The notes beneath the pieces are model-generated. The model worked only from the letters and a program-made list of their open reading frames with translations, was not told where the DNA came from and searched no databases. A stretch of DNA of 61,368 nt from Planctomycetota bacterium (GTDB lineage Bacteria > Planctomycetota > Phycisphaerae > UBA1845 > UTPLA1), in NCBI GenBank assembly GCA_003576905.1, contig QEVG01000032.1, positions 1 through 61,368 of the forward strand, in the 5' to 3' direction. Made by a program: the position numbers and the translations under genes. Of this stretch, positions 34,222-61,368 are shown in pieces; position 1 is the first letter of the stretch, and each line of letters opens with the position of its first letter.

Positions 34222-34995
34222 CTAGATCCTGAACTCCTTGTCGCGCTGCTTCAGCTGGAAGCGGAGGCGGTCCACGATGGCGGAGTGCATCTGGCTGACG
34301 CGGCTTTCGGACAGGTCCAGCGTCATGCCGATCTCCTTCATCGTCATTTCCTCATAGTAATAGAGGATGAGAATAAGCCGTTCGATGGGCGAAAGCCCGC
34401 GCTGGATCAACTCCTTGAGATCGACCTTCTGAAGTTCCTGGGGCGGCGTCAGAGAGCGATCGTCGCGGAGCACTTCCAGCTCGCTGACGTCGCGGGTCGA
34501 ATCATTGTTGTAGGCCTTGCGCGATAGCGACGTCATCGACACGGCCGTCGAGTCCTTCGACATCCGCTCGAATTCGCCGGGCGAGACGCCGATGCGGTCG
34601 GCGATCTCTTTTTCGCTGGGAAGCCGCCCGAGCTCACTCTGGAGCTCCTTGGTGGCGTGCTGAATCTTCTGCGATCGGTTGCGCACGAGGCGCGGCACCC
34701 AGTCCATCGAGCGAAGCTCGTCGAGAATCGCCCCGCGCACGCGCGGCGAGCAGTACGTCTCGAACTTCACGCCGCGATCAAGGTCGAAGGCCTCGATCGC
34801 GTCGATCAGGCCGAACATGCCCGCCGAAATGAGATCGTCCAGCTCCACCTCCGTGGGAAGCTTCGCGTGGACGCGCTCGGCATTGAACCGCACGATGTGC
34901 GTGTAATGCTGGATGATGGCGTTTCGCAGTTCGTGGCTGGGCTCCCGCTTGTACTGCCGCCAGATGTTCTGGATATCCGTGTCCGTTGCGAGCAT
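34222..34995 (-). CDS. fliA: Flagellar sigma factor FliA (sigma-28)
   Basis: A 257-aa sigma factor of the FliA/WhiG group that directs late flagellar (and motility) promoters. Region 2 includes HYTHIVRFNAERVHAKLP, DLISAGMFGLIDAIEAFD and FETYCSPRVRGAILDELRSMDWVPR, the last two diagnostic of this group. Region 3 is DRIGVSPGEFERM, and region 4 is GLSPIERLILILYYYEEMTMKEIGMTLDLSESRVSQM in overlapping order. It lies near the end of the flagellar block, after flhF and flhG. No flgM (anti-FliA) is in the window. Confidence 0.96.
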   Translation of the reverse strand: MLATDTDIQNIWRQYKREPSHELRNAIIQHYTHIVRFNAERVHAKLPTEVELDDLISAGMFGLIDAIEAFDLDRGVKFETYCSPRVRGAILDELRSMDWVPRLVRNRSQKIQHATKELQSELGRLPSEKEIADRIGVSPGEFERMSKDSTAVSMTSLSRKAYNNDSTRDVSELEVLRDDRSLTPPQELQKVDLKELIQRGLSPIERLILILYYYEEMTMKEIGMTLDLSESRVSQMHSAIVDRLRFQLKQRDKEFRI

Positions 34996-36255: not shown

Positions 36256-37596
36256 TCAAACCCCCTGCGCCGCGGCGGCGCGATTCGGGAGACTCGCATG
36301 GGACCCCGGGGTCTCGGCCGGTGGGCCAGCCGGCGTCACACCCGGCGACAGAATCAACTCGGCCACGCGGCGCGCGCTGCCGACCTCGATGTCGTCGGGC
36401 ACCGCCTGGCCCGTGGTGAGGTACGACAGGCGCAGATCGAAAGATCGAAGGACATTCAAAATGACACCGAAGCCGACCGCTTCGTCGAGCTTGGTGAAAA
36501 TGAGCTGCCGCGCTCCGAGAACCGAGAACTTCTCGATGGCCTGGCGGATCGCCGCCTCGCTGGCGGTCGTCGAGAGCACGAGATGCACCTGGTCGGGTAC
36601 CGCGGCCGCCAGGTACGTCCGCAGTTCCGCGATGCGCGGATCGTCCTTCTGGCTGCGGCCCGCCGTGTCAATCAGGATCAGGTCGACCGACGAAAGCCGG
36701 CGGATGGCGTCGCCCATCTCGGCCGGCGAGGTCACGGGAATCAGGGGTATCTGCATGATCTGCGCGTAGGTCTTGAGCTGCTCCACGGCGGCGATGCGAT
36801 AGCTGTCGATGGTGATCAGCCCGACGCTGCGCCCCTCGCGGAGCTTCATGTGCGCCGCCAGCTTGGCCAGCGTCGTCGTCTTCCCTACACCGGTCGGTCC
36901 GACCAGCGCCACGATCGTCGGCCGGTTCTCGTTAACCAGTTGCAGCGGTGCGGCGGGGGGCAGCGACTCCCCGATGTATCGCAGCAGTTCCTCGCGCACA
37001 TTCTCAGCGGACACGCCTTGCGACCGCGTCTCTCGGTCCTCGCCGTCCATCGGCGCTTCGCTCTCGCCCAGCCGCGGGCGCACCCGGTCGATGATTTCCA
37101 TGACCAGCCCGCGCGCGACCTCGTGGCTGATCATCCGGGTGTAGTGCTCAATCAGCTCTTCCGGGACATCGGCCGGACGGGCGGGATCGTTTTGCAGCAA
37201 CAGATCGCGGACCATCCCCCGGATCGCGAGCAGATCCTCGCGGATATCATGCGGAGCCCCTGTCGAAGCCGCGGACTGCGGAATGCCCGGCCCGCCGGCC
37301 GCGGGCGCCGGCTTCTCAATACCGTAGGCCGCCGCGACGCGCCCCTGAACCGGCGCCGACGATCCGGCAGGCACGCCGGCGCGTAGCTCATCCGGTCGGC
37401 CCGCGCCGCTGCGTGCCGCGATGACCTTCGGATCCGCCGTCGCCGTGATTTCCACGAATGTCCGGGCGCCGATTCCAAGTATGCCCCCGCGCCGAATCGT
37501 GCGGGTGTGCAGGATCATCGCGCCTTTGCCGAGCTCGCGCTTCACGCGGGCGAGGGCGTCAGACATGGACCGGGCTTGATACGTTTTCAACTCCAT
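36256..37596 (-). CDS. flhF: FlhF, signal-recognition-particle-type GTPase for flagella
   Basis: A 446-aa SRP-family GTPase that marks the site of flagellar assembly. The N-terminal B domain has MELKTYQARSMSDALARVKRELGKGAMILHTR as its conserved start (motifs within 1-32). The NG domain shows the P-loop GPTGVGKT (233-240), then TIDSYRIAAVEQLKTYAQIM, LIDTAGRSQKD and IFTKLDEAVGFG. It overlaps the end of flhA by 38 bases and nearly abuts flhG, so translation is coupled. Confidence 0.95.
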   Translation of the reverse strand: MELKTYQARSMSDALARVKRELGKGAMILHTRTIRRGGILGIGARTFVEITATADPKVIAARSGAGRPDELRAGVPAGSSAPVQGRVAAAYGIEKPAPAAGGPGIPQSAASTGAPHDIREDLLAIRGMVRDLLLQNDPARPADVPEELIEHYTRMISHEVARGLVMEIIDRVRPRLGESEAPMDGEDRETRSQGVSAENVREELLRYIGESLPPAAPLQLVNENRPTIVALVGPTGVGKTTTLAKLAAHMKLREGRSVGLITIDSYRIAAVEQLKTYAQIMQIPLIPVTSPAEMGDAIRRLSSVDLILIDTAGRSQKDDPRIAELRTYLAAAVPDQVHLVLSTTASEAAIRQAIEKFSVLGARQLIFTKLDEAVGFGVILNVLRSFDLRLSYLTTGQAVPDDIEVGSARRVAELILSPGVTPAGPPAETPGSHASLPNRAAAAQGV

Positions 37597-43673: not shown

Positions 43674-44224
43674 CACGCGCCCTCCTCGACGAGTTCCTGC
43701 CCGGCGACGATCTCGCTGACCCGCACGCAGAAATTGTCATTAAGCACGAGAACTTCACCCCGGGCCACGAGCCGGTCATTGACAAAGACATCGACCGGAT
43801 CGCCGGCGAGCTTGTCGAGTTCGACGACCGAGCCCTCGCCGAGCTTCAGCACGTCTTCAATCAGCATCATGGCACGGCCAAGCTCGATCTTTACGTCGAG
43901 TTCGACGTCGCTGATCAGATCGATGCCCCGGTCACCCGCCGGTGCGGCCGCGGGACCGAAGTCGGGCAGGTGGAGGGTGGCGGCCCCGGTCGTCGCGGGT
44001 CCGACGGATGCGACAGCCTCCGCCGATGCATTCGCGCCTGCCGACGCCTCCACTGCGGCCTCCGCCTGCGCAGCGTCGCCGCTCTGTATGGGAGAGGCCG
44101 CGGCGGAAGGTGCGGCTGGGGCATTCGACGCGGGAGCCTGCGCAGGCTGACCCGCGGCGGCCAGCGCCGCGTCGATTTCTTCCTGAGAAGGAGTGTTGGA
44201 TGGATTGGGATTCTCGCCGGACAT
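43673..44224 (-). CDS. fliN: Flagellar motor switch protein FliN
   Basis: A 183-aa C-ring component. The C-terminal 85 residues are a SpoA/FliN domain: [53 protein letters not shown], read in short blocks, with an EIVAGQ ending. The first 95 residues begin with [10 protein letters not shown], a motif like the CheY-binding N-terminus of FliM/FliY, and continue as an alanine-rich linker. fliM, usually just upstream, is absent here. That makes the FliM-like N-terminal motif notable. Confidence 0.95.
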
Positions 44225-44333
44225 TCCGTCCTACCTTCCGTGGCCGTACGTGGCATCCATGCCGGGCCGCGATGAATCTCGATGAATCAGGGCCGGCCCC
44301 GTGGCGGGCTGCCGTGCCACCGGAACCAAGCCG

Positions 44334-44888
44334 CTAATAGCCCGTGGGCATCGGCATGCACTCGGGCACGAGCACTTGCTCGATCAGCGAGTCGTCGCCA
44401 AGGAGCACGCCGAGTTCGTGACGGACCTGGCGCTTCAACGTTTCCAGGCCTGGCTCGGCCAGATGCCGTTCCTCGGCGCTGCGAATGACGCGACCGATCG
44501 CGTCCTCGACGGTGCTCTTGCGGCTGTTGAAGAACTCCTCGACCCTGCCCTGGTTCTCATGGTGCACGCGGACCACGACCTTGACGTTATAGAGCATGGC
44601 TTTCGAGCCGTTGCTGTTCAGGACGCGGACCTTGGCGACGAGAATCTCACGGCTCTCTTCCCACGGCTTGGTCGTCGGGGTCAGCGCCTGTTCGATGCCG
44701 ATTGTTGGGTCGGGGTCGGTGCCGAGAAATTTCATGCACAGAAAGATGCCGACTCCCTCGACCAGCATGAGCCCGCCGACGATGCCGATCGTTCCGAACC
44801 GCCCCTTGGTTGCGGGCGCGGACTTCGGGTCCCCGGCCGATTCGGCGGGTTCCTTTTCCTTTTTTGCGTTCTCGGCTTCTTTGGACAT
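44334..44888 (-). CDS. fliL: FliL flagellar basal-body-associated protein
   Basis: A 184-aa single-pass inner-membrane protein that associates with stator units. The start at 44888 gives a lysine-rich cytoplasmic tail, a helix at about 34-52 (IGIVGGLMLVEGVGIFLC) and a periplasmic FliL/stomatin-like domain with VVVRVHHENQ, SRKSTVEDAIGRVIRS and KRQVRHELGVLL. GCGGAAAAT precedes the ATG. A longer frame from 44990 would add unlikely residues. motA/motB, which often precede fliL after flbD, are not present. Confidence 0.88.
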   Translation of the reverse strand: MSKEAENAKKEKEPAESAGDPKSAPATKGRFGTIGIVGGLMLVEGVGIFLCMKFLGTDPDPTIGIEQALTPTTKPWEESREILVAKVRVLNSNGSKAMLYNVKVVVRVHHENQGRVEEFFNSRKSTVEDAIGRVIRSAEERHLAEPGLETLKRQVRHELGVLLGDDSLIEQVLVPECMPMPTGY

Positions 44889-45088
44889 ATTTTCCGCAGG
44901 TGCGACTCCGGCGACACCCGGACGCGCAAATCTAGAACTCTTATCGGTCGATTCCTGCGCCGCCTGAACCCCGATCCCGGCCCGCGGCACGGGATTCAGG
45001 CGATTGTCGCGGGCGATCGCGCAGGAGTTGCCGATGCTGCCGGCCGAAACCTGATTGCGCGCCGCATTTCAACGCAGCCGCGCGCCGA

Positions 45089-45280
45089 TTACATGGCAAA
45101 CGCGCGAATACTGCGCCCATACGCCACGGCGCGCTTGACCACTTCCTCGACGCTCTCACGGACAATGATGTGCTCGCCGTTGATCAGCGTGATCATGGTG
45201 TCCGGGGTCGCTTCGATGAACTTGATCAACTCGGCGTTTACGACCACGCTTTCACCGCGCAGCCGGGTCACGACGATCAT
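45089..45280 (-). CDS. flbD: FlbD-family flagellar protein
   Basis: A 63-aa protein of the flagellar FlbD family (the small Gram-positive/spirochete type, unrelated to the Caulobacter response regulator). The pattern is complete: MIVVTRLRGESVVVNAELIKFIEATPDTMITLINGEHIIV in blocks, then ESVEEVVKRAVAYGR. It lies between flgE and fliL as in many genomes. The 200 bases between it and fliL hold no other gene. Confidence 0.92.
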   Translation of the reverse strand: MIVVTRLRGESVVVNAELIKFIEATPDTMITLINGEHIIVRESVEEVVKRAVAYGRSIRAFAM

Positions 45281-45342
45281 GACTGCCTCCGCCGGCGCGC
45301 GGGGCCGGACCGCCAGCCGCCGCGCTGGACCGTATTCAATCC

Positions 45343-47022
45343 TTACCGCCGCGCGATCAGCAGCAGCTCCTGAAGAAGCTGGTCCGACGTCGAGATCACG
45401 CGGCTGGCCGCCGAGAACGCGGTCGACGACGTGATCAGGTTGATGAACTCACGCGACAGATCCACGTTTGACAGCTCCAGCGCGCCCGAGGTGATCCCGC
45501 CCGCCCCGAGGGTCAGCGGCGGCGTCACCCGCGCCTCCCCGCTGTTCGGACCGATGAAGAACACGTTGTTCGACCGGGCAAGCAGGCCCGCCGGGTTCGC
45601 AAACGTGGCAAGGGCGATCTGCCCGATGGTCTGATTCAGCCCGTTGGTGAACGTACCGGTGATGACGCCGTCCTGGCCGACGCTGTAGTCGATCAGCGTC
45701 CCGGTCGCGAAGCCCGTCTGGAAGCTCATCACCACGTTGGAATCGCGCGAGTTCAGACCCGACAGCCGGGTGAAATCGAGGTTGATCGACAGCGGATCAT
45801 TCGCCCCCGATCCGGCGCGATTCACCAGAACTCCGCTGTTCTGGGCCTCGACGAACTGCCCGTCCTGATCAAACGTGATCGTGCCCGTCCCGATGTCGAA
45901 CTGCACGTCGGTATCGTCGGCGGCCGTGGCATAGTAGCGCCAGGTGCTGCTGCCGGTCGTGCGGCTCTCCAGCACGAGGGATACGTTGACCGACAGGGGG
46001 TTGCCGAGCGAGTCGTACACGACAAACGTCGTGGTCGTGCTCTCGCCGTTGGCGGCCTGGGTCTCGTTGAAGGTGAACGGCACCTGCGTCGAGCCGTTGC
46101 TGATAAGCGTCCCGGCCTGGATGGAGAGGGCGTTCTCCACGCCCGCGTTGCCGCGGATTTCGAGCCGCCCGTCGGCCGTGACGCCGACGCCCGGGCTGCC
46201 CGCGACGCCGGCCGTGGTGTCAATGCCGGTGACCTGGTCCAGCCAGTTGAGGAAGTCGTTCACGGTCGTGCCCGTGGTCCCGACGACAAAAGTCTCCGCT
46301 GGAACGTCGCGCCCGCCGCGCTTGATCCCGCTCACCGTGATCGTGTCTCCATTCGCCAGGAGCGCCGGTCCGCCGACGTTTCGCACATCCGTCAGCAGCG
46401 TCGCACCGGTGATCGGGTTGTTTGCCGCGTCGTGGAGGATCTGCGATTGGAGGATCGTCCCCTGAGTGGCGACATCGCCGGTTGAATCTAGAGTTCCGTC
46501 AAACCGCGCCGAATCGGTCGCCCGCGCGACAGTCATCGACCCGAGCGGAATGGACAGGTCGCCGACCGCGCCGGGAATCAGCTCAAAATCGGAGTTGACT
46601 GAGTACCCCTGGACGAAGAAGCCGTCCTGGGTAATCAGCCGGTTGTCGGCGCTGAGCGTGAAGCCCCCGTCGCGCGTATATACGCTCTCGTTCTCCGGCG
46701 TCCGAAGCACGAAAAAGCCCTCGCCCTCGATCGCCAGGTCGCTCGGTACGCCCGTGGTCTCAATCGAGCCGGGCGTGAACGATCGCTGGATCGCACCCAC
46801 GGTTGATCCGAGTCCGATCTGGTTCGGATTGGTCCCGCCCTGAGTGCCGTTGGGCTTCGTGCCGGCCGACAGCGTCCGCGCAAACTGCGTCTGAAAGAGC
46901 GTGCGCGAACCCTTGAAGCCGGTCGTGTTGATGTTGGCGATGTTGTCGCCGATCACGTCGAGCCGGAACTGGCTGCTGTTAAGCCCAGAAAGTCCCGTGA
47001 AGAGTGCGGATGTCAGCCCCAT
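45343..47022 (-). CDS. flgE: Flagellar hook protein FlgE
   Basis: A 559-aa hook subunit. The N-terminus has the rod/hook family helix (ALFTGLSGLNSSQFRLDVIGDNIANINTTGFKGSR, residues 5-40 in blocks) and the GEGFFVLRTP motif near 105. The C-terminus ELSNVDLSREFINLITSSTAFSAASRVISTSDQLLQELLLI forms the matching helix. It is longer than the ~400 aa of enteric hooks because of extra central domains. It is downstream of flgD after 75 bases, matching assembly order. Confidence 0.96.
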   Translation of the reverse strand: MGLTSALFTGLSGLNSSQFRLDVIGDNIANINTTGFKGSRTLFQTQFARTLSAGTKPNGTQGGTNPNQIGLGSTVGAIQRSFTPGSIETTGVPSDLAIEGEGFFVLRTPENESVYTRDGGFTLSADNRLITQDGFFVQGYSVNSDFELIPGAVGDLSIPLGSMTVARATDSARFDGTLDSTGDVATQGTILQSQILHDAANNPITGATLLTDVRNVGGPALLANGDTITVSGIKRGGRDVPAETFVVGTTGTTVNDFLNWLDQVTGIDTTAGVAGSPGVGVTADGRLEIRGNAGVENALSIQAGTLISNGSTQVPFTFNETQAANGESTTTTFVVYDSLGNPLSVNVSLVLESRTTGSSTWRYYATAADDTDVQFDIGTGTITFDQDGQFVEAQNSGVLVNRAGSGANDPLSINLDFTRLSGLNSRDSNVVMSFQTGFATGTLIDYSVGQDGVITGTFTNGLNQTIGQIALATFANPAGLLARSNNVFFIGPNSGEARVTPPLTLGAGGITSGALELSNVDLSREFINLITSSTAFSAASRVISTSDQLLQELLLIARR

Positions 47023-52042: not shown

Positions 52043-52785
52043 GGCTTCACGGACCATTGGTTGAGCCGTTCGCGCCAGCCGGTTACCAGCTCGTCGGCGA
52101 TGCGGTCGATCCGCCCGGTCAGCGTCCCGTCAATCTGGCTGTCGGGCGTCTCAAGGACAATCCCGCCGCGCCCGACAGAGGCATCCTCCGTGACGCGAAG
52201 ATGACGACCCGATTGCAGCGACTCGGCCAGTGGAGCCGCCAGTTCGCGAACGGCGGCGACGTCCTTGGGATGCGCACGGACCAGCACCCGCGATGCCTCG
52301 GCGACCAGCTCCAGCGCTTCGGCGCAGGCCTCGGTGGCGATTTCCGGGGCGACGTCCTCCAGCGCGGCGAGCCTCTCGGCGATTCGCCGCGCGATCACTA
52401 CCGCGAGCACGACGACGTCGCGCCGGGCGGCAAGCAAAAGCGCCTCACGGCGGTCGCGGAACTCCGACAGCAGGTTCGAGAGGGCCGATACCAGCGACGC
52501 CTGCTCCGCATCGAGCCGCGCCGTGGCGGCGAGAAGGGCCGTTTGCTCGCCCTCGCGCCGGCCTTCCTCGAGACCTTGCGCCCGCCCGGTGGCATGGCCT
52601 TCGCGGGCGGCGTGTTCGCGCAGGAGGTCGGCCTGGCGGCGCGCCTCGACGAGAATGCGGTCCGCCTCGGCGCGAGCCGCGCCGACGATCGACTCGGCCT
52701 GCGAGGCAATGTCGCGCAGGTCGAGCCCGAGCATGCCGCGCGAGGCCCGCCCGGCCTCGCCCGCCTTGATGATGGTGCGGCTCAT
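52039..52785 (-). CDS. fliH: Flagellar assembly protein FliH
   Basis: A 248-aa regulator of FliI, with an alanine/arginine-rich coiled coil with glutamate/alanine repeats (about 30-110, including GRAQGLEEGRREGEQ) and a C-terminal FliH/V-ATPase E-like domain (DASVGRGGIVLETPDSQIDGT). It overlaps both fliG (upstream) and fliI (downstream) by four bases, an arrangement that assures balanced synthesis. Length is normal. Confidence 0.93.
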   Translation of the reverse strand: MSRTIIKAGEAGRASRGMLGLDLRDIASQAESIVGAARAEADRILVEARRQADLLREHAAREGHATGRAQGLEEGRREGEQTALLAATARLDAEQASLVSALSNLLSEFRDRREALLLAARRDVVVLAVVIARRIAERLAALEDVAPEIATEACAEALELVAEASRVLVRAHPKDVAAVRELAAPLAESLQSGRHLRVTEDASVGRGGIVLETPDSQIDGTLTGRIDRIADELVTGWRERLNQWSVKP

Positions 52786-53825
52786 ACGATGAGTTCCTTT
52801 TCCCCGCCCCGGCCGGCGATGATGATCTCACCCGATTCTTCAAGCCGCCGCACGACATCGACGATGCGCTGCTGGGCCATTTCGACGTCGGAGAGCCGAA
52901 CCGGACCCATGTATTCCATCTCCTCGCGAATGAGCTGGGCGGCGCGCTCCGACATGTTTGAGAAGATCTTCTCCTTGAGCTCGTCCGTCGCCGTGCGCAG
53001 CGCCAGCGTGAGATCGCTCGTCTCGATCTCCTTGAGCACAGACTGGATACCCTTGTCGTTGACGAGCATCACATCCTCGAACACGAACATCAGGCGGCGA
53101 ATCTGCTCGACGAGCTCCGGGTCTTCCTCGCCGAGCGCCTCGAGGATCCCCTTTTCCGTCGAGCGGTCCACAAGGTTGAGAATCTCCGCGACCGTTTCGA
53201 CGCCCCCGACGCGCTGGAGCCGATCGTTCATCATGCCGGACAGCCGATGCTCCAGCCCCTTTTCCACCTCCTTGATCACTTCGGGGCTGGTCTGCTCCAT
53301 GTGCGATATGCGGCTGATCACCTCGATCTGCTTTTCCGCCGGCAGTCCCGCGAGGATTTCGCTCCCCTTGGCCGGAGTCAGGTGCGCGAGGATCAGCGCG
53401 ATGGTCTGCGGGTGCTCGTCCTGAATGAACGTGAGCAGGTTCTCTGTCTCCGCCTTGTGCAGAAACGTGAATGGCTTTGAGTAGAACTGATGTTCGATCT
53501 GGTGCATCACGCGCTCCGCCTCTTCCTTGGAGAGCGTCTGGTTCAGCAGCATCTTCGCGTACGAAAGCCCGCCCGCCTCCGTGTACGTCCGGGCCAGCGC
53601 AAGATTGTGAAACTCCCGGATGACCTGCTGGCGCTGTTCCTCGGAGACGTTTTTCAGATTGGCGACCTCGCGCGTAATGTTCTCAATCGTGTCCGGGTCG
53701 AGCTGCTTGAGGATTTCTGAGGCGGTGGCCTTGTCGAGACTGACCATGAGGACGGCGACCTTGCGCAATCCGGTCAGCGCGGCGTCCTCCGGCGGCGACT
53801 GCGTTCGTGCTCTTGTGCTTGCCAT
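52782..53825 (-). CDS. fliG: Flagellar motor switch protein FliG
   Basis: A 347-aa rotor protein. The N-terminal domain begins LTGLRKVAVLMVSLDKATASEILKQLDPDTIENITREV in blocks; the middle domain has HPQTIALILAHLTPAKGSEILAGLP; the C-terminal torque domain has IRRLMFVFEDVMLVNDKGIQSVLKEIETSDLTLALR and MSERAAQLIREEMEYMGPVRLSDVEMAQQRIV in blocks, with the charged residues that meet MotA. It lies directly after fliF (12 bases) and overlaps fliH. Confidence 0.97.
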   Translation of the reverse strand: MASTRARTQSPPEDAALTGLRKVAVLMVSLDKATASEILKQLDPDTIENITREVANLKNVSEEQRQQVIREFHNLALARTYTEAGGLSYAKMLLNQTLSKEEAERVMHQIEHQFYSKPFTFLHKAETENLLTFIQDEHPQTIALILAHLTPAKGSEILAGLPAEKQIEVISRISHMEQTSPEVIKEVEKGLEHRLSGMMNDRLQRVGGVETVAEILNLVDRSTEKGILEALGEEDPELVEQIRRLMFVFEDVMLVNDKGIQSVLKEIETSDLTLALRTATDELKEKIFSNMSERAAQLIREEMEYMGPVRLSDVEMAQQRIVDVVRRLEESGEIIIAGRGGEKELIV

Positions 53826-53837
53826 CGCGCCGCGCCT

Positions 53838-55511
53838 CTACTCGGAATCCTGAACCCATTGCTGAACGATTCCCGCCGCCGTCGTCGCGTCGTCCTTCAC
53901 CATCTGGCCGATCTGACGGATGATCTGCTGCGTGCGGACCATCTCGGCGTCCACTTCGTGCCCCACCAGCACCCCCTGCATCTCCTCGACTTCGCCGACC
54001 GGAGTCGCCCCGCCGAGCGACTGGAGATGTCCGTCGCCGGATTCGCCCCCGTCGCCGATAAACGCGCCGTAACCGCCGCCCGCCCCCGCGCCGGCCAGCG
54101 TGCGCGGCGACGAAAGCACGACCTGGGCCTTTCGCGCGATCCGAGCCATGAACAGGATGCTGATCAGCGCAAGCAGACCCAGACCCGCCTGCGCGCCGTA
54201 TTGCCTGGCCATTGCCAGATATCCCACGTCCGACGCCGCCGCCTGCGGCTGCGTCGTGACCGGGAGGTCGTAGTACCAGTCCACGACGATCTGGTCCTCG
54301 GCTTTCGCGTCAATCAGGGGCCGGACGAGCGCCTTGATCCGAGGCACTTCCGTGGACGCCACCTTCTCGATGGCCGCGTCCCGCGCCTGGTCCTTGGGCA
54401 GGCCCATCCCGTCCACGATGCGCTCGAGAAAACTTCGCGGCACGCTGACCGACGCCGACACGCGCTCGACCGCTCCGCGCAGCTCGTCCACGACCGTCAT
54501 CTTCACGTCGCGCTTCTCACTGTAGGTCGTGTCCGTCTCCTCGCGCGTGCTCGAGCTGCCGGGCGACGGCTCCGCCAGCCCCACGCGGGCGTTGGGCCGC
54601 ACCGAGGGCTCCGCCGCGCGGCCGGGGCCGGTCATTTCCTCGGCAGTGCTCGTTTCGCGCTGCACGACGGGGGGGCCATAGACTTCCTGCTGCGACTTCT
54701 CCGCCGAAGTGCGGAGCTTCGCATGCACGTTGACCACAACCCCTTCGATGTGGCGAAGCTGATCGTAGATCTTCTGCATGTAGTGGTCTTCGATGCGGGC
54801 CTGTTGTTCAAGCAGTTCGGTCGGAACGTGATCCAGACCCTCGGGTGGGCGGTAAAACCGCTTCCCGTCGGTGATCTTGATGTTTGACAGGTGAAGCCCC
54901 GGCACCGCGCCCGCGACGAAATTGGCGATCGCCAGCACCTGCTGCTTGCCGAGTTCCTGGCCGTCGGCCATCGTCAGCGCCACGCTCGCGCTGGCCGCCG
55001 AATCCTGCCGCGAAAATCCGCGCTTCTGGGGAACTGTGACAAGCACCCGCGCATCGCGAACGCCTTGAAAGTTACGCAACACGCCGGAGAGTTCCGCCTC
55101 GAGCCCGCGCGACTCCATCCAGCGCGACCGCTGCTCGCCGATGAACACGCTGTTCTGCTTCACGAGGGAGGCATACCCCAGGCTCGTGTCGGAGGGCAGC
55201 GCGCCGCGCTCGGAGAGCAGCGCCTGGGCCCGCTGCCGATCCTCGTCGGCCCCGCGAATCTGCACGCGGTCTCCCTGCACGCGCGTCGATACGCCGGCGA
55301 GCCGAAGTTCAGACTGCACGCGCTGAATCTCGGACGGAGTGAATGACTGATCGAGAAGCGGGATCCAGTCGGGCTCGCTGCCCCAGCGGATCATTCCCCA
55401 CATGCCGCCCAGCAGCACCACCACGAGCAGCATGATCGCGATCCGCTGCGAGACGGACATGCCGCGAAGCTGCTCGGCGATCTGTCGGGCTTGTGCACTG
55501 ACGAATTCCAT
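53838..55511 (-). CDS. fliF: Flagellar MS-ring protein FliF
   Basis: A 557-aa inner-membrane ring protein with two membrane helices (about 22-42 and 434-452). The ring-building motifs include DRVQIRGADEDRQRAQALLSERGALPSD, GVRDARVLVTVPQKRGFSRQDSAASASVALTM and LRHIEGVVVNVHAKL, all in order and in blocks. The C-terminal tail (GEVEEMQGVLVGHEVDAEMVRTQQIIRQIGQMVKDD) binds FliG. A hairpin (55552-55570) lies in the 148-base gap after fliE. Confidence 0.96.
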   Translation of the reverse strand: MEFVSAQARQIAEQLRGMSVSQRIAIMLLVVVLLGGMWGMIRWGSEPDWIPLLDQSFTPSEIQRVQSELRLAGVSTRVQGDRVQIRGADEDRQRAQALLSERGALPSDTSLGYASLVKQNSVFIGEQRSRWMESRGLEAELSGVLRNFQGVRDARVLVTVPQKRGFSRQDSAASASVALTMADGQELGKQQVLAIANFVAGAVPGLHLSNIKITDGKRFYRPPEGLDHVPTELLEQQARIEDHYMQKIYDQLRHIEGVVVNVHAKLRTSAEKSQQEVYGPPVVQRETSTAEEMTGPGRAAEPSVRPNARVGLAEPSPGSSSTREETDTTYSEKRDVKMTVVDELRGAVERVSASVSVPRSFLERIVDGMGLPKDQARDAAIEKVASTEVPRIKALVRPLIDAKAEDQIVVDWYYDLPVTTQPQAAASDVGYLAMARQYGAQAGLGLLALISILFMARIARKAQVVLSSPRTLAGAGAGGGYGAFIGDGGESGDGHLQSLGGATPVGEVEEMQGVLVGHEVDAEMVRTQQIIRQIGQMVKDDATTAAGIVQQWVQDSE

Positions 55512-55659: not shown

Positions 55660-55974
55660 CTACACGCGCATCTGCTTCAACTCGGTGTACGCGTCCATCA
55701 GCTTGTTGCGGATCTCCATGAGCAGATCAAACGCCACGCCAGCCTTTCGACTCGCGGTGAAGACTTCGGCGACGTTGTCCGTTTCGCCGGTCAGGAGCTT
55801 CTGTACACCGGCATCGGCCTCGCTCTGCAACTGATTCACGCGATCCAGGCTCTCGAGCAGGTAGGACTTGAAATCCTTGCCGTCCGCCGGAGCCGCCTTG
55901 CCTGCCGCGCCGGTCGAGGTCACGGGGGCCAGGGGCCGAATTGAACCGAGTCCGCTTATCGTGGGATCCGCCAT
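55660..55974 (-). CDS. fliE: Flagellar hook-basal body protein FliE
   Basis: A 104-aa rod adaptor linking the MS ring to the rod. The C-terminal helix SLDRVNQLQSEADAGVQKLLTGETDNVAEVFTASRKAGVAFDLLMEIRNKLMDAYTELKQMRV (in blocks, about 42-104) is fully diagnostic. The N-terminal 35 residues are proline/glycine-rich. It follows flgC after 62 bases, the usual flgB-flgC-fliE order. Confidence 0.95.
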   Translation of the reverse strand: MADPTISGLGSIRPLAPVTSTGAAGKAAPADGKDFKSYLLESLDRVNQLQSEADAGVQKLLTGETDNVAEVFTASRKAGVAFDLLMEIRNKLMDAYTELKQMRV

Positions 55975-56036: not shown

Positions 56037-56438
56037 TCAGGCCAGCAGCCTCAGTGTCGCGGCCATCATCGACTTCGCCGCCTCCATCGCCGTGACGTTC
56101 GCCTCGTAGGCCCGCATGGCCACCATTGCGTTGATCATCTCCGTCGCTGGGTCGACGTTGGGATACAGCACGTATCCATCCGCGTTCGCGTCGGGATGGC
56201 TCGGGTCATGCACCATGCGCGGCTTGAGGTTCGTATCTTCGACGATCGACGAAACATGAACGCCCTCGCCGCCCTTGCCGTCGCCGGGGGAGAGCAGCGC
56301 CACGCGCCGCATGTAAGGCCCCGGCGCGCCGTCGGCCCGCCGCGTGGTCCGGCTGTTGGCCACGTTCGCCGCGATGGTGTCGAGCTGAATCCGCTGCGCC
56401 ACCAGGCCGGACGTGCTGATATCAAGAACACCGTACAT
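56037..56438 (-). CDS. flgC: Flagellar basal-body rod protein FlgC
   Basis: A 133-aa proximal rod protein. The N-terminal helix is LDISTSGLVAQRIQLDTIAANVANSRTT, the family motif. HPDANADGYVLYPNVDPATEMINAMVAMRAYEANVTAMEAAKSMM at 75-125 (in blocks) is the FlgC signature. It is 43 bases downstream of flgB. Confidence 0.96.
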   Translation of the reverse strand: MYGVLDISTSGLVAQRIQLDTIAANVANSRTTRRADGAPGPYMRRVALLSPGDGKGGEGVHVSSIVEDTNLKPRMVHDPSHPDANADGYVLYPNVDPATEMINAMVAMRAYEANVTAMEAAKSMMAATLRLLA

Positions 56439-56481: not shown

Positions 56482-56919
56482 TCAAACCACGCGACCCCGA
56501 ATCGACTTCTCCAGGGTGTCGAAATAACGTTTCAACAGCTCCGTCGCCACCTGGTGCGTCATCGCCGTCTCGGCAACCTGGCTCATCTGCCGCTCGATCG
56601 ACGCGTTGGTCCCGTCTTTGAAGAGCAGGTTCTCCACCGGCTCTTCCGACGGCCGAACGGACAGCCGCCCGTCCGATGCCAATTCAAACTCCCGCGTACG
56701 CTCCAGACGAAACGGCTCGCTCCGATTCCGGTCGCGCCGGTCGGCCGCCTCGCGCAGCGCCGCCTGAAACGACGCGACGTCGAGCTGCTTTGTCCGATAG
56801 CCCGGCGTATTGATGTTGGCGATGTTCGTCGCCAGCATCCGCTGCCGGGCTTCGTTGAACGCGAGCGTCTTCTCCAGCATGGAGATGGACGTCCCGCCGC
56901 TCACATTCTTCAGAAACAC
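56482..56919 (-). CDS. flgB: Flagellar basal-body rod protein FlgB
   Basis: A 145-aa proximal rod protein, the first gene behind the sigma-54 promoter. SMLEKTLAFNEARQRMLATNIANINTPGYRTKQLDVASFQAAL (13-55, in blocks) and NASIERQMSQVAETAMTHQVATELLKRYFDTLEKSIRGR at the C-terminus are standard. It starts at GTG 56919, with GGAGG nine bases upstream; the sigma-54 transcription start would be about 40 bases before. An internal ATG at codon 14 is too far into the conserved helix. Confidence 0.94.
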   Translation of the reverse strand: MFLKNVSGGTSISMLEKTLAFNEARQRMLATNIANINTPGYRTKQLDVASFQAALREAADRRDRNRSEPFRLERTREFELASDGRLSVRPSEEPVENLLFKDGTNASIERQMSQVAETAMTHQVATELLKRYFDTLEKSIRGRVV

Positions 56920-56970
56920 GATCGCCGGCCTCCATGCCTGTCGGTCGCGCCGATGCTCATCCGCGTCTCA

Positions 56971-56987
56971 AAGCAAGGCCCGTGCCA
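56971..56987 (-). promoter_or_regulatory. Sigma-54 (-24/-12) promoter of the flagellar operon
   Basis: On the minus strand the sequence is TGGCACGGGCCTTGCTT, matching TGGCACG-N4-TTGCW at every defined position. Transcription should begin near 56961 and lead into flgB (GTG at 56919). It sits between flgB and an NtrC-family activator gene, the expected regulator. The rest of the 235-base gap (56920-57154) shows no other clear motif. Confidence 0.88.
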
Positions 56988-57154
56988 CCGCACCGGCCTC
57001 GTTTCCCCGCGGCCACGCGGGTTTTTCGCGCTGCGTGCGGTCGGGCGATCGGCAAGATCCGCCCGACCGCGCAGCTATTGCGCGTTTGCGCGATGCGCCG
57101 GACGGTCTCGTCGCGCCCGGTGCCACGATTCTGAAGCACGCGATACGGACTCGC

Positions 57155-58561
57155 TCAGCCGGCGCGCCGGGCCTCTTGCTGAAGGGCCGCGTTGGCCGCA
57201 GCCGCGGCGGATGCTTCCTCGCGCCACTGCTTGAGCTTCATGCCGAGCGTGCGCACGCCGATCCCCAGCGCCTTGGCCGTCTTCTCGCGATGTCCGTTGA
57301 ACCGAACGAGGGTCTGCTCGATCAGCGCCCGCTCCATGTCTTCCATCATGTGGCCGGGGCGCAGCGGGCGGCCGCCCTGTTCAGCCCCGAATCCGCTCGA
57401 AAGCCACGGCTCGATAAGCGGCGCGTCGATCTGGTCGTCCTGGCAGAGCACCACCGCGCGCTCGCAGATGTTTTCGAGCTCGCGCACGTTGCCGGGCCAG
57501 TGATAGTTCTCCAGCACCGATTGCGCCCGCGGGCTGACTTTCTTGGGCTCCCCGCCCTCGCGCCGCGCGATCCGGCGGAGGAAGTAATCCACCAGTTCCG
57601 GCAGGTCCTCGCGCCGATCCCGAAGCGGCGGCAGCACCACCGGCAGCACGCTCACGCGGAAAAACAGGTCCTCGCGGAACCGCCGGCGCGCCACCCAGTC
57701 GGTCAGGTCGCGGTTTGTCGTCACGATAACCCGCACGTCGGCGTACTGGGTCACGCTGCTGCCCACGCGTTCGAACTCGCGCTCCTGAAGTACACGAAGC
57801 AGCTTCGCCTGAACCGGGATCGACACTTCGCTGATTTCGTCGAGCAGGAGCGTGCCGCCGTCGGCCAGCTCGAACCGCCCCTTTCGCATCTTGTCCGCGC
57901 CGGTGAACGCGCCGCGCTCGTGGCCGAACAGCTCGCTTTCCAGCAGATTGGCCGACAGCGCCGCGCAGTTCACGCACAGAAGCGGACGATTCGCACGGGG
58001 AGAGGCCATATGAATGGCACGCGCCACCAGTTCCTTGCCGGTGCCGCTCTCACCCTGAATCAGGACCGTCGCGTTGCTCCGGGCCACCCGATCAACCTGC
58101 GCCCGCACGGCGCGCATCGCCCGGCTGGACCCGACCAGCTCGGCGTCGCCCTCGAGGTCCTTCAGGGTCACCCGCAGGGCCTCGTTTTCGCCGCGCAGCC
58201 GGCCGACCGCCACGGCCCGCTCGACCACGAGATTGATGGCATCCGTCTCGAACGGCTTCTGGATATAGTCAAACGCGCCGAGCTTCATCGCCTCGACCGC
58301 GTTGGCCACCGTGGCGTACGCCGTCATCAGCACGAACGGCGCGTCCACTCCCCGAGCCCGCAGGTGACGCAGGAGTTCGATCCCGTCCATGCCGGGCATC
58401 TTCAGATCGCTGATGACCACGTCGAACCGCGTCGGGGAAATCCCGTTGGCGGCCTGTGCCGGGTCCCCGAAAGCCGTCACCTCGTGGCCGGCCACGGTCA
58501 GAATGTCCGTCAGCGAATCCCGCATGACATCCTTGTCGTCGATAATGCATACGCGCGCCAT
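57155..58561 (-). CDS. NtrC-family sigma-54-dependent response regulator (FlgR/FleR-like)
   Basis: A 468-aa cytoplasmic activator with three domains. The receiver (1-120) has D52 as phosphoacceptor in [12 protein letters not shown], and K102 in IQKPF. The AAA+ domain (140-380) has Walker A GESGTGKE (170-177), the sigma-54-contacting GAFTGA loop (217-222) and Walker [10 protein letters not shown]. The C-terminal Fis-type helix-turn-helix is [23 protein letters not shown]. It is 235 bases upstream of flgB with a consensus sigma-54 promoter between them, and downstream of a soluble histidine kinase. It is therefore most likely the flagellar class-III-type activator. An enhancer site was not located. 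Confidence 0.93.
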
Positions 58562-58701: not shown

Positions 58702-59565
58702 TCAATGAACCGTCGGCTTCGCCGTGTCCCCGCCAGGAAGCCGAATGACGAACCGCGCCCCGCCCTCCGGCCGGTTGCCCGCGCGGATGGTCCCGCCGTG
58801 GGCCTCGATAATCCGATGCACGATCGCCAGGCCCAGCCCGGTGCCGCTCGCCTTGGTCGTGAAGAACGGATTGAAAATGCGGTGCAGGTGGGCCTCGGGA
58901 ATACCGGGGCCCGTATCCGTCACGCAGATTTCCGTTCCGTCTCCCGCCGCCGTCGCGGCGAGCCGCACGCGACCGCCCTTTCCCGCCGCCTGAAGACCGT
59001 TCATCACCAGGTTGAGCAGAACCTGATGCAGCCGATGTCGATCACAGTATACGCCGCATGAACCTGCGTCGGGCTCCACGGTCAGCGTCCCGCCGCATTC
59101 TTCGGCCCACGGCCGCACGGCGTCCTCAAGTGCCATTAGAATGTCGCTCATGCGGTGCGGCTGCGACTCGAGCCGGTACTCCTGCGCGAAATCAAGAATC
59201 TCCGATACCAGCCGTTCCAGAGACCGCACGCCGTAGGTGATCTTCGAGGCGGCCGCGGCCGCCTTGTCGCGCCCGGACAGCTCGCGCTCCAGCATCGATG
59301 CGTACAGCGCGATGCCCCCGAGCGGATTGCGAATCTCATGCGCCAGGCCCGCGGCCATCTCGCCCAGGGCTGCCAGCCGCTCGCTCCGGCGAAGCTCCTC
59401 ATTCTTCCGGCGAAGCTCCTCGCGCAGCCGCGCCACTTCCTCGTGCAGTCGCTCGTGCGCGCCTTTCAGACGCTCCGTGACGTCGTTGTACGCCGAGATG
59501 ATCGCCGAGAGCTCCAGCTCCCGGTCGCTGATCCGCGGCGAATGTGTCGCTGCCAGGCTCGTCAT
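58702..59565 (-). CDS. Cytoplasmic sensor histidine kinase (FlgS-like)
   Basis: A 287-aa kinase without membrane helices. An N-terminal coiled coil (15-64) leads to the HisKA domain with H76 in GLAHEIRNPLGGIALY, and the HATPase_c domain with N-box LLNLVMNGLQAA, G1 VTDTGPGIPEAH and GTGLGLAIVH. A coiled coil in place of a sensor domain suggests it reads an internal cue, such as the state of basal-body assembly, as proposed for FlgS in other bacteria. It lies 140 bases before the regulator gene and overlaps the FlgN-like gene by four bases. Confidence 0.92.
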   Translation of the reverse strand: MTSLAATHSPRISDRELELSAIISAYNDVTERLKGAHERLHEEVARLREELRRKNEELRRSERLAALGEMAAGLAHEIRNPLGGIALYASMLERELSGRDKAAAAASKITYGVRSLERLVSEILDFAQEYRLESQPHRMSDILMALEDAVRPWAEECGGTLTVEPDAGSCGVYCDRHRLHQVLLNLVMNGLQAAGKGGRVRLAATAAGDGTEICVTDTGPGIPEAHLHRIFNPFFTTKASGTGLGLAIVHRIIEAHGGTIRAGNRPEGGARFVIRLPGGDTAKPTVH

Positions 59566-60026
59566 GCGCGTTCGTCCGTCAGTCCGCGTCCAGGGTGTCG
59601 CCCCGGCGCCGCGTAGGCCGTCGCGGCGCGCGCGTGGTTGTCTAGCGCGTCGATCCGGTTCACCATGTCATGCCGCCGCGCCTGGAGCGTCTCCGTGTCG
59701 CGGGTGTCGCTCTGGAGAATACTCGACAGCGCCGAGTTCGACTCCTCCAGAAGCTCTGCCACGTGCCGCCGCCGCGACTCGTCCAGGCCCGAGTAGATGC
59801 TCGTCCACTGGCTGCGATACGGCGCCAGCCGGGCGTTGAGACCGACCAGTCCGTCCACAAGCCGCTGCCGCTCGGAAAGCAGCGCCAGCAGCGGTTGAGG
59901 ATCGTCCTGAATCACGAGCGCCTTCTGCCGGTCCGCGAGGCTGCGAAGCCGCGCGAAGAGAACGCGCTGATGTTCCAGAAGCTGAACCAGCTCACCCACC
60001 TGATTGTCCTGTTCCGCCTGTACCAT
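59562..60026 (-). CDS. FlgN-like flagellar chaperone
   Basis: A 154-aa helical protein. The start at 60026 is chosen because GAGGACGTG precedes it and the preceding frame is arginine-rich noise. The pattern LVQLLEHQRVLFARLRSLADRQKALV and DDPQPLLALLSERQRLVDGLVGLNARLAPYRSQW (in blocks) matches FlgN-type chaperones, which escort the hook-filament junction proteins FlgK and FlgL (not in this window). It is 13 bases after the TPR gene and overlaps the kinase gene, so the three are one unit. Confidence 0.72.
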   Translation of the reverse strand: MVQAEQDNQVGELVQLLEHQRVLFARLRSLADRQKALVIQDDPQPLLALLSERQRLVDGLVGLNARLAPYRSQWTSIYSGLDESRRRHVAELLEESNSALSSILQSDTRDTETLQARRHDMVNRIDALDNHARAATAYAAPGRHPGRGLTDERA

Positions 60027-60039
60027 CACGTCCTCATGC

Positions 60040-61368
60040 CTAGTAAATGCCCGTCCGCTCCAGCCGCGCGACGAGACCCTCCCAGAACGCCTTCGACGAC
60101 ATGCCGGGCTCGCCTTCGAAGGCCGAGGCCGGCGTCTTCCGCAGGAGCCAGCCGAGCCGCGCGAGGGCCGCCCGCGCCTCCTCGACCTGGCCGACACGCT
60201 GATGGCACTGCACCACCTGCATCATGGCGACGATCGCCGCCGGAAGGTTCTCATACCGCCACGCCGTCTCGCGATAGGCGACGATGGCTTCGTCGTACCG
60301 ACCCAGGTCAAAAAGGCAGTCGCCCCGATACTGATAACTTGCCCGAAGGCGCGTCCGCTCAAGCTCCGACAGCGCCGAAGTATCTTCCGCCGCCAGCAGC
60401 TTCACGACGAGGTCGTATTCGAAAAGGGCCTTCTCCAGCCGCCGGTCCGCCTCGCGCTGCGCGTCCGCGCGGGCCAGCTCGCTCGCGCCCGCCTTCGCGT
60501 CCTCCCGAAGTGCCTCCGCACTGGCGCGATACGCGCCGGCGAGCTGAAAGCGAAGCCGCGCTATCTGTGGATCGTCGGGGTAAAACGCGATCGCGTCCTC
60601 CAGCCGTGTGATCGCCTTTTCGATGTGTCCCGGCTCGCGCGCGGGATCGGCGTCCGCGTAATAATCGGCGAGCCGAAAGAGCGCCAGTCGGTATTCAAGC
60701 GCCTGCGGCGAAAAAAGCGGATCCGGCCCGCGATCGTCCACGATATCGAGCAGCAGTCCCACTCCCTCGGAAACGCCGTCGCCGCCCCGTCGAATCAGGC
60801 AGTCCGCGAGCGGCACGTACGACTGAAGCGCTGATGGCGTCCGCGCATACACCGTGATAATCCGGCGATAGGCCGCGATCGCACGGTCCAGGTCTCCCAT
60901 CTCGTGCGCCGAGCGGGCGATCCGATGCAACGCCGCGACGCGTCCGGGCGCCTCGGGAAACTCCCGGACCAGCCGCATCAGGCTGTCGAGCGCGCGATCC
61001 GCTTCGCCCGCGGCATCAAAGTTATCAGCGGCCTTCTCCAATGCTGCGGCGGCCGCCGCCTCGTCCACCGATACAAGCCCCACGAGCGACAGGTATGCCT
61101 CTGCCGCGCGAAGATAAAGGGCCTTTGCCCCGGCGCGTCCCTCGCCCGATCCGGTCGTGCTCGACGCCGCAAGCTCCGAGAGTGCCCCGGCCTGCCGCGA
61201 CAGGTAATAGGCCTGAAGATGCTGATTGCCCTGGGCCACGAGCCGCCGGGCCAGGTCGAAATACTCGACCGCCATCGCCACACGCCGATCCTGCATCAGC
61301 ATCTCGGCAATGGTCGAAACCCCCACCCGGACCGACTCCCGGTCAATGCCCGTCGGCGGCGTCTCCGA
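60040..61368 (-). CDS. TPR-repeat protein, partial (5' end outside window)
   Basis: At least 442 residues of a protein made of tetratricopeptide-like helix pairs (for example AVEYFDLARRLVAQGNQHLQAYYLSRQ and DLDRAIAAYRRIITVYARTP, read in blocks). The frame is still open at the window's last base, so the true start lies beyond 61368. It is upstream of the FlgN-like gene by 13 bases, so it belongs to the flagellar regulatory unit. TPR proteins usually hold protein complexes together; its partner here is unknown. Confidence 0.85.
   Translation of the reverse strand, partial: SETPPTGIDRESVRVGVSTIAEMLMQDRRVAMAVEYFDLARRLVAQGNQHLQAYYLSRQAGALSELAASSTTGSGEGRAGAKALYLRAAEAYLSLVGLVSVDEAAAAAALEKAADNFDAAGEADRALDSLMRLVREFPEAPGRVAALHRIARSAHEMGDLDRAIAAYRRIITVYARTPSALQSYVPLADCLIRRGGDGVSEGVGLLLDIVDDRGPDPLFSPQALEYRLALFRLADYYADADPAREPGHIEKAITRLEDAIAFYPDDPQIARLRFQLAGAYRASAEALREDAKAGASELARADAQREADRRLEKALFEYDLVVKLLAAEDTSALSELERTRLRASYQYRGDCLFDLGRYDEAIVAYRETAWRYENLPAAIVAMMQVVQCHQRVGQVEEARAALARLGWLLRKTPASAFEGEPGMSSKAFWEGLVARLERTGIY

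Follow-up and report, generated by a model that had tools for sequence, protein, structure and literature searches.

Which promoter starts transcription of the flagellar genes at this locus, and which regulator works it? The window analyzed here, that is, the whole 61,368-nt stretch of planctomycete DNA, carries a long block of flagellar genes on its minus strand, preceded by genes of a two-component system. Comparison with related sequences makes it highly probable that a functional sigma-54 promoter drives the block from flgB on, by way of the adjacent kinase and regulator and a pair of upstream dyads.

The minus-strand gene order is TPR protein, weak FlgN-like protein, kinase, NtrC-type regulator, flgB, flgC, fliE, fliF, fliG, fliH-like and fliI, and the block runs beyond fliI to flhA, flhF and fliA. 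The genes that the argument needs are as follows.

60040..61326, minus strand, TPR protein, first in the regulator cluster (TPR families; relatives here in many loci)
59562..60197, minus strand, weak FlgN-like protein (PF05130 20.3 bits, under the cut-off of 30.5; relatives here in many loci)
58702..59565, minus strand, cytoplasmic histidine kinase (PF02518 HATPase_c, PF00512 HisKA; hydropathy)
57155..58561, minus strand, NtrC-type response regulator and sigma-54 activator (PF00158, PF00072, PF02954; GAFTGA)
56482..56919, minus strand, flgB, rod protein and first gene of the block (TIGR01396 69.7 bits, cut-off 59.05)
56037..56438, minus strand, flgC (TIGR01395 above cut-off)
55660..55974, minus strand, fliE (TIGR00205 above cut-off)
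53838..55511, minus strand, fliF, MS ring (PF01514 and PF08345 above cut-off; TIGR00206 below its cut-off)
52782..53825, minus strand, fliG, rotor (TIGR00207 above cut-off)
36256..37596, minus strand, flhF (TIGR03499 above cut-off)
34222..34995, minus strand, fliA, sigma-28 of the FliA/WhiG family, end of the block (TIGR02479 245.9 bits, cut-off 189.6)

The fliH-like gene between fliG and fliI has family scores under their cut-offs. An earlier note on this DNA had placed FliA (sigma-28) at the end of the same block, as the above-cut-off match at 34995-34222 bears out. Gaps inside the 22-kb block (148 nt between fliE and fliF, one of 118 nt, some 350 nt following flgE and some 355 nt ahead of fliA) could house more promoters, and a separate one is conceivable above all for fliA. 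At one mismatch the window has a single further sigma-54-like match, TGTCACGCGCTTTGCA at 50206-50191 on the minus strand (GT for GG), which sits in the 118-nt gap, flanked by two unnamed frames of the block. Within 44224-45343 of the window, a small protein at 44334-44990 looks FliL-like by eye. We do not claim a loss of fliM, which is missing from the block and lies on another contig (G000:C7:7686-8261).

The regulator and flgB are separated by a spacer of 235 nt, which contains the following features.

56972..56987, minus strand, sigma-54 -24/-12 promoter TGGCACGGGCCTTGCT (exact match, relatives' sites, junction controls)
56961..56961, minus strand, predicted transcription start, about 12 nt past the -12 GC by sigma-54 promoter geometry
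56929..56933, minus strand, GGAGG, probable flgB ribosome-binding site, 9 nt ahead of the GTG (from sequence)
57030..57075, minus strand, strong GC hairpin that overlaps the dyads described below (-34.7 kcal/mol, z -6.4)

The 16-mer has no mismatch to the sigma-54 consensus (TGGCAC and TTGCT elements, with the GG/GC spacing kept) and is the sole exact match in the window. The exact minus-strand match reported previously at 56971-56987 stands, but its start was off by one base, the true one being 56972. Its position shortly ahead of flgB is likewise confirmed, at a measured 52 nt from the GTG (56919); the stop of the NtrC-type gene (57155) is 167 nt away. The hairpin, which may act as an insulator between the regulator and flgB transcripts, was set aside as the main feature; no common hairpin sequence was seen among 15 spacers compared, and the folding is that of the window's spacer.

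In the 4.7-Mb genome the consensus has five exact matches versus one for a reversed-pattern control, and 74 versus 43 when one mismatch is allowed. Because the excess at one mismatch is small, the consensus by itself is no proof of a site, and position and conservation decide. The other four exact matches lie 43-135 nt ahead of open frames, which by eye resemble an aminotransferase, a dehydrogenase and ResB in three cases and, in the fourth, are a small frame ahead of a PrkA-like gene. That the lineage has rpoN, as had been supposed, agrees with a PF04552 match in the genome itself (G000:C1, 180 bits) and with matches in 58 of the 61 genomes of the relatives search, the three genomes without a match being 55-84% complete. 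A one-mismatch sigma-54 site also stands ahead of a frame named GroEL-like by eye (L129, G000:C30); sigma-54 enrichment of chaperone genes in Planctomycetota is described in excerpts of PMC12316311.

For the conservation analysis, 61 genomes were searched for FliG, with a match in 60, and the surrounding stretches were compared; with ten named loci added, the order-level set came to 68 loci, plus the window. The nearest of the ten named relatives is the uncultured planctomycete PLA6, whose FlgC is 83% identical. Both flgB and the preceding regulator were matched in 59 of the 68 loci, while among the other nine, seven are cut by contig ends and two (L063 and L102) are long and simply without a match. 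Loci with an unmatched flgB or regulator were left out (L063, L068, L070, L078, L083, L092, L100, L102 and L104), as were the duplicates L037 and L046 (on the contigs of L047 and L076) and, by eye, L043 and L044 (site and spacing as in L045). This gave 56 non-duplicate spacers, window included, which were scored with weights of our own choosing against 500 dinucleotide shuffles each. The earlier proposal to look for the same site upstream of flgB in relatives was answered positively: the site beats the shuffles at p<0.05 in 44 of the 56 spacers (p<0.01 in 30), and the strand facing flgB outscores the opposite one in 55. Most of the 12 sites that fail against the shuffles retain the GG and GC spacing, for example TGGTATCGGTTTTGCT. 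The best-scoring sites of L071 and L072 are probably wrong, as the dyad geometry points to others, with counts unchanged.

In fixed 250-nt windows, scores of at least 14 occur before flgB in 29/56 cases, against 0/55, 0/56, 1/55, 0/57, 0/63 and 2/61 at six other junctions; no sigma-54 excess was found before ntrC, flgC, fliE, fliF, fliG or fliI. Autoregulation of the regulator genes by sigma-54 is unsupported at the same threshold, with 0/51 before the TPR gene, 0/47 before the FlgN-like gene and 0/55 before the kinase. Compared with seven of the 14 family relatives, chosen for having the site, the 16-bp site is 75-94% identical to that of the window and the remaining upstream spacer 40-52%. 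By exact match, position and conservation, TGGCACGGGCCTTGCT is a genuine-looking sigma-54 promoter at the head of the flagellar block.

Several relatives (L047, L048, L049, L051, L052 and L053) also have a GATAAGA box 42-43 nt upstream of the sigma-54 site, with variants in L054, L056 and L057; the box is also present in L050, which is without the site, and the window carries GCGAAAAAC (around 57030) at the corresponding place. As a sigma-28 -10 element the box was dropped by eye, there being no -35 TAAA at the right distance.

The two genes encoded just ahead of the spacer have their motifs intact. The regulator consists of a REC domain, a sigma-54 interaction domain and HTH_8; its GAFTGA loop is intact, as are Walker A and the phospho-acceptor Asp. 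It so combines the parts that define a sigma-54 enhancer-binding protein (a REC domain, an AAA+ domain with Walker A and GAFTGA, and an HTH at the C-terminus). The kinase has no strongly hydrophobic segment, its top 19-residue Kyte-Doolittle mean being 0.84. Domains, loop and hydropathy thus agree with the earlier description of an NtrC-type activator and a soluble kinase just ahead of the site. A cytoplasmic kinase and a sigma-54 activator encoded with flagellar genes are what marks a flagellum-associated two-component system, and both genes are conserved together with flgB. The regulator scores under the cut-offs of the FlgR (NF049963, 308.7 versus 750 bits), FlbD (NF050807, 338 versus 750 bits) and NtrC (TIGR01818, 436.8 versus 558.6) models.

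Upstream of the promoter, the spacer holds two dyads.

57070..57082, minus strand, distal enhancer-like dyad CGCAATAGCTGCG, in the same promoter-relative place in several family relatives
57051..57063, minus strand, proximal enhancer-like dyad GGCGGATCTTGCC, which departs from the consensus at one position and lies 19 bp from the distal one

Their consensus is CGCA-N5-TGCG / GGCA-N5-TGCC, mostly 19-20 bp apart. Five families of the order have the pair, some 60-100 bp ahead of the promoter: counted from the promoter's first base, it lies near -95/-76 in most of f1 (the window's family) and near -87/-68 in other families. The scoring of dyads against shuffles admitted spacings of 17-21; as the consensus had been derived by eye from f1 spacers, only the other families test it independently. 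Tandem dyads reach p<0.05 in 13 of the 15 f1 spacers, the misses being L047 (of the window's genus, with the site; p 0.31) and L050 (without the site), and, outside the consensus set, in 8/8 spacers of f5, 8/10 of f8 and the single ones of f6 and f7 (1/1 each). They are not significant in f2 (0/3, p 0.055-0.12), in f4 (0/12) or in the ungrouped named loci (0/4 tested, two more spacers being too short). Dyad placement is not universal: f4 and the ungrouped loci have the site and the regulator and no spacer dyads. The recognition helix is similar in the loci without significant dyads, and since f4 and the ungrouped loci have no spacer dyads despite this similarity, the link between dyads and regulator is one that we infer. 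The dyads are likely binding sites of the neighboring regulator, which would serve as its enhancer.

A further indication of the partnership may lie in regulators that have decayed. Two strict motifs were looked for in 101 regulator sequences, duplicates and fragments included: 81 have both the loop and Walker A, six the loop only, nine Walker A only and five neither. The 14 without the strict loop comprise five that start GAY for GAF, two fragments, one GACTGA, two GAFTSA and four that are damaged, namely L050, whose loop is deleted, L055, which reads GAFPGA, and L169 and L189, which have lost both loop and Walker A; all four damaged regulators retain the helix-turn-helix. The comparison of loop with site covered 77 loci, with 35 excluded because no adjacent regulator could be aligned or because the spacer was short. 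A canonical loop (G[AS][FY]TGA) goes with a site at p<0.05 in 53 of 70 loci (17 fail), and the GACTGA locus and the two GAFTSA loci have sites at p 0.003-0.017. L050, L169 and L189 are without a site, and L055 has a weak, doubtful match (p=0.023) that overlaps a dyad; the sample is small, and L169 and L189 belong to one family (f35) and may represent a single event. Regulator loop and promoter seem to have been lost together, as a partnership between them predicts.

Beyond the order, 147 planctomycete genomes were searched and 79 had an FlgC match, the window's own included; 60 of the other 78 were examined, with 58 of these 60 loci above the family cut-off and with flgB starts estimated from profile matches. 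In this phylum sample 56 loci could be scored, 25 of them with a site at p<0.05, and four spacers were too short. The regulator precedes flgB on the same strand within 1.2 kb in at least 40 of the 60 loci (36 scored and the four with short spacers; in L148 it was seen yet not counted as adjacent). Thirteen of the 36 have a gap of at most 12 nt and are uninformative on the promoter, and among the 23 with a gap of at least 30 nt the site is present at p<0.05 in 16. In at least 17 of the 60 loci the regulator abuts or nearly abuts flgB, with no room for a promoter between, so any sigma-54 promoter there must be elsewhere. Abutting or overlapping genes were seen in L153, L155, L156, L157, L160, L165, L167, L168, L170, L172, L179, L181 and L184, where the regulator may be in the same operon as flgB. 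In 20 loci no regulator was found next to flgB; nine of these carry a site at p<0.05.

Two other explanations have to be weighed against a promoter worked by its neighbors. The promoter may be real and be worked by another sigma-54 activator, the neighboring regulator serving other targets; we consider this improbable, since, although the dyad-free spacers of f4 and the ungrouped named loci would fit it, the regulator adjoins flgB across most of the order and in much of the phylum, three of the four regulators with a damaged sigma-54 loop stand beside a flgB that is without the promoter, and in the genome itself a tandem dyad with at most one mismatch occurs in four places, against two for the reversed control, none of the three outside this locus having a sigma-54-like site nearby (best 8/12 positions). 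Less probable still is a chance or relict match, the block being transcribed from a sigma-70 promoter or through read-through out of the regulator genes, as the weakness of the consensus at one mismatch and the abutting regulator and flgB genes of many phylum members could suggest: the 16-mer is conserved amid a diverged spacer, the control junctions are empty or nearly so, a simple consensus scan of 56900-57200 found no sigma-70-like site, and a strong hairpin precedes the promoter.

Control of the block by its adjacent two-component system would then proceed as follows. The kinase (59565-58702) would phosphorylate the NtrC-type regulator (58561-57155), which would bind the two dyads at 57082-57051 and loop to sigma-54 polymerase waiting at 56987-56972. 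Its AAA+ domain would open the promoter, with a predicted start near 56961, and the rod, MS-ring, rotor, export and hook genes, perhaps with fliA, would be transcribed, presumably as one long transcript. The earlier note had proposed a path from kinase to activator, sigma-54 and hook-basal-body genes, and its parts that can be tested in sequence (rpoN, relatives' sites, motifs and fliA) hold. With fliF, fliG and the export genes behind the same promoter, either the pair is a top-level switch or there are more promoters inside the block. We tentatively put forward a bolder scheme, possible though on balance doubtful, in which the kinase-regulator pair would be the top-level sigma-54 switch of the early block, acting through a tandem enhancer and not as an assembly checkpoint, and in which the joint loss of loop and promoter in several lineages, with the DNA-binding domain kept, would represent a repeated natural conversion of an activator into another type of regulator within the same operon.

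Excerpts of PMC12316311 report sigma-54 promoters of motility genes in Planctomycetia, mentioning an earlier Pirellula study, and refer to Phycisphaerae solely for chaperone genes; rpoN is noted in Rhodopirellula in the consulted part of PMC2754498. No mention of planctomycetes was found in PMC3930126, PMC7064773 and PMC3162934. The type of system is already known; the regulator, the dyads and a Phycisphaerae flagellar promoter have no description among the matches listed from the open-access literature, as judged from titles and abstract beginnings. The present analysis proposes a concrete control circuit for flagella in a phylum for which, in the excerpts above, only the sigma-54 enrichment of motility genes in Planctomycetia is reported. 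The set of regulator, promoter and dyads permits regulon prediction in uncultured planctomycetes, and the activator loop and the promoter, which seem to have been lost together, would allow an evolutionary test of the partnership between regulator and promoter.

Four known systems invite comparison. The relatives L050, L169 and L189 resemble the NtrC proteins without GAFTGA of Rhodobacter capsulatus and Caulobacter, in that the loop is lost and DNA binding kept; such proteins are known to work with sigma-70 (PMC10274813). The window regulator differs from them in having the loop, which only some of its relatives have lost. Like FlbD of Caulobacter, which binds ftr sites at sigma-54 flagellar promoters (PMC7064773, PMC3930126), it is an NtrC-family protein that probably acts at such a promoter; FlbD is without a cognate kinase and works with FliX (PMC7064773), whereas the window regulator has a kinase gene adjacent. 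FlrB-FlrC of Vibrio and FleS-FleR of Pseudomonas share with the window a flagellum-associated kinase and sigma-54 activator and the presence of FlhF (PMC7064773); they stand under a master regulator, FlrA or FleQ, that makes the early genes. A further parallel is FlgS-FlgR of Campylobacter and Helicobacter, where a cytoplasmic kinase and an NtrC-family regulator act on sigma-54 rod and hook genes (PMC7064773, PMC3930126). In FlgSR, synthesis begins with the MS ring, rotor and export apparatus, which the kinase senses, and the pairs of Campylobacter, Vibrio and Pseudomonas act only after these have been made (PMC7064773). Unlike in FlgSR and FlrBC, the promoter in the window fronts a block that ends in fliA and itself contains the genes for MS ring, rotor and export, and this gene order suggests that the control logic may differ from kinase activation by an assembled core of MS ring, rotor and export apparatus.
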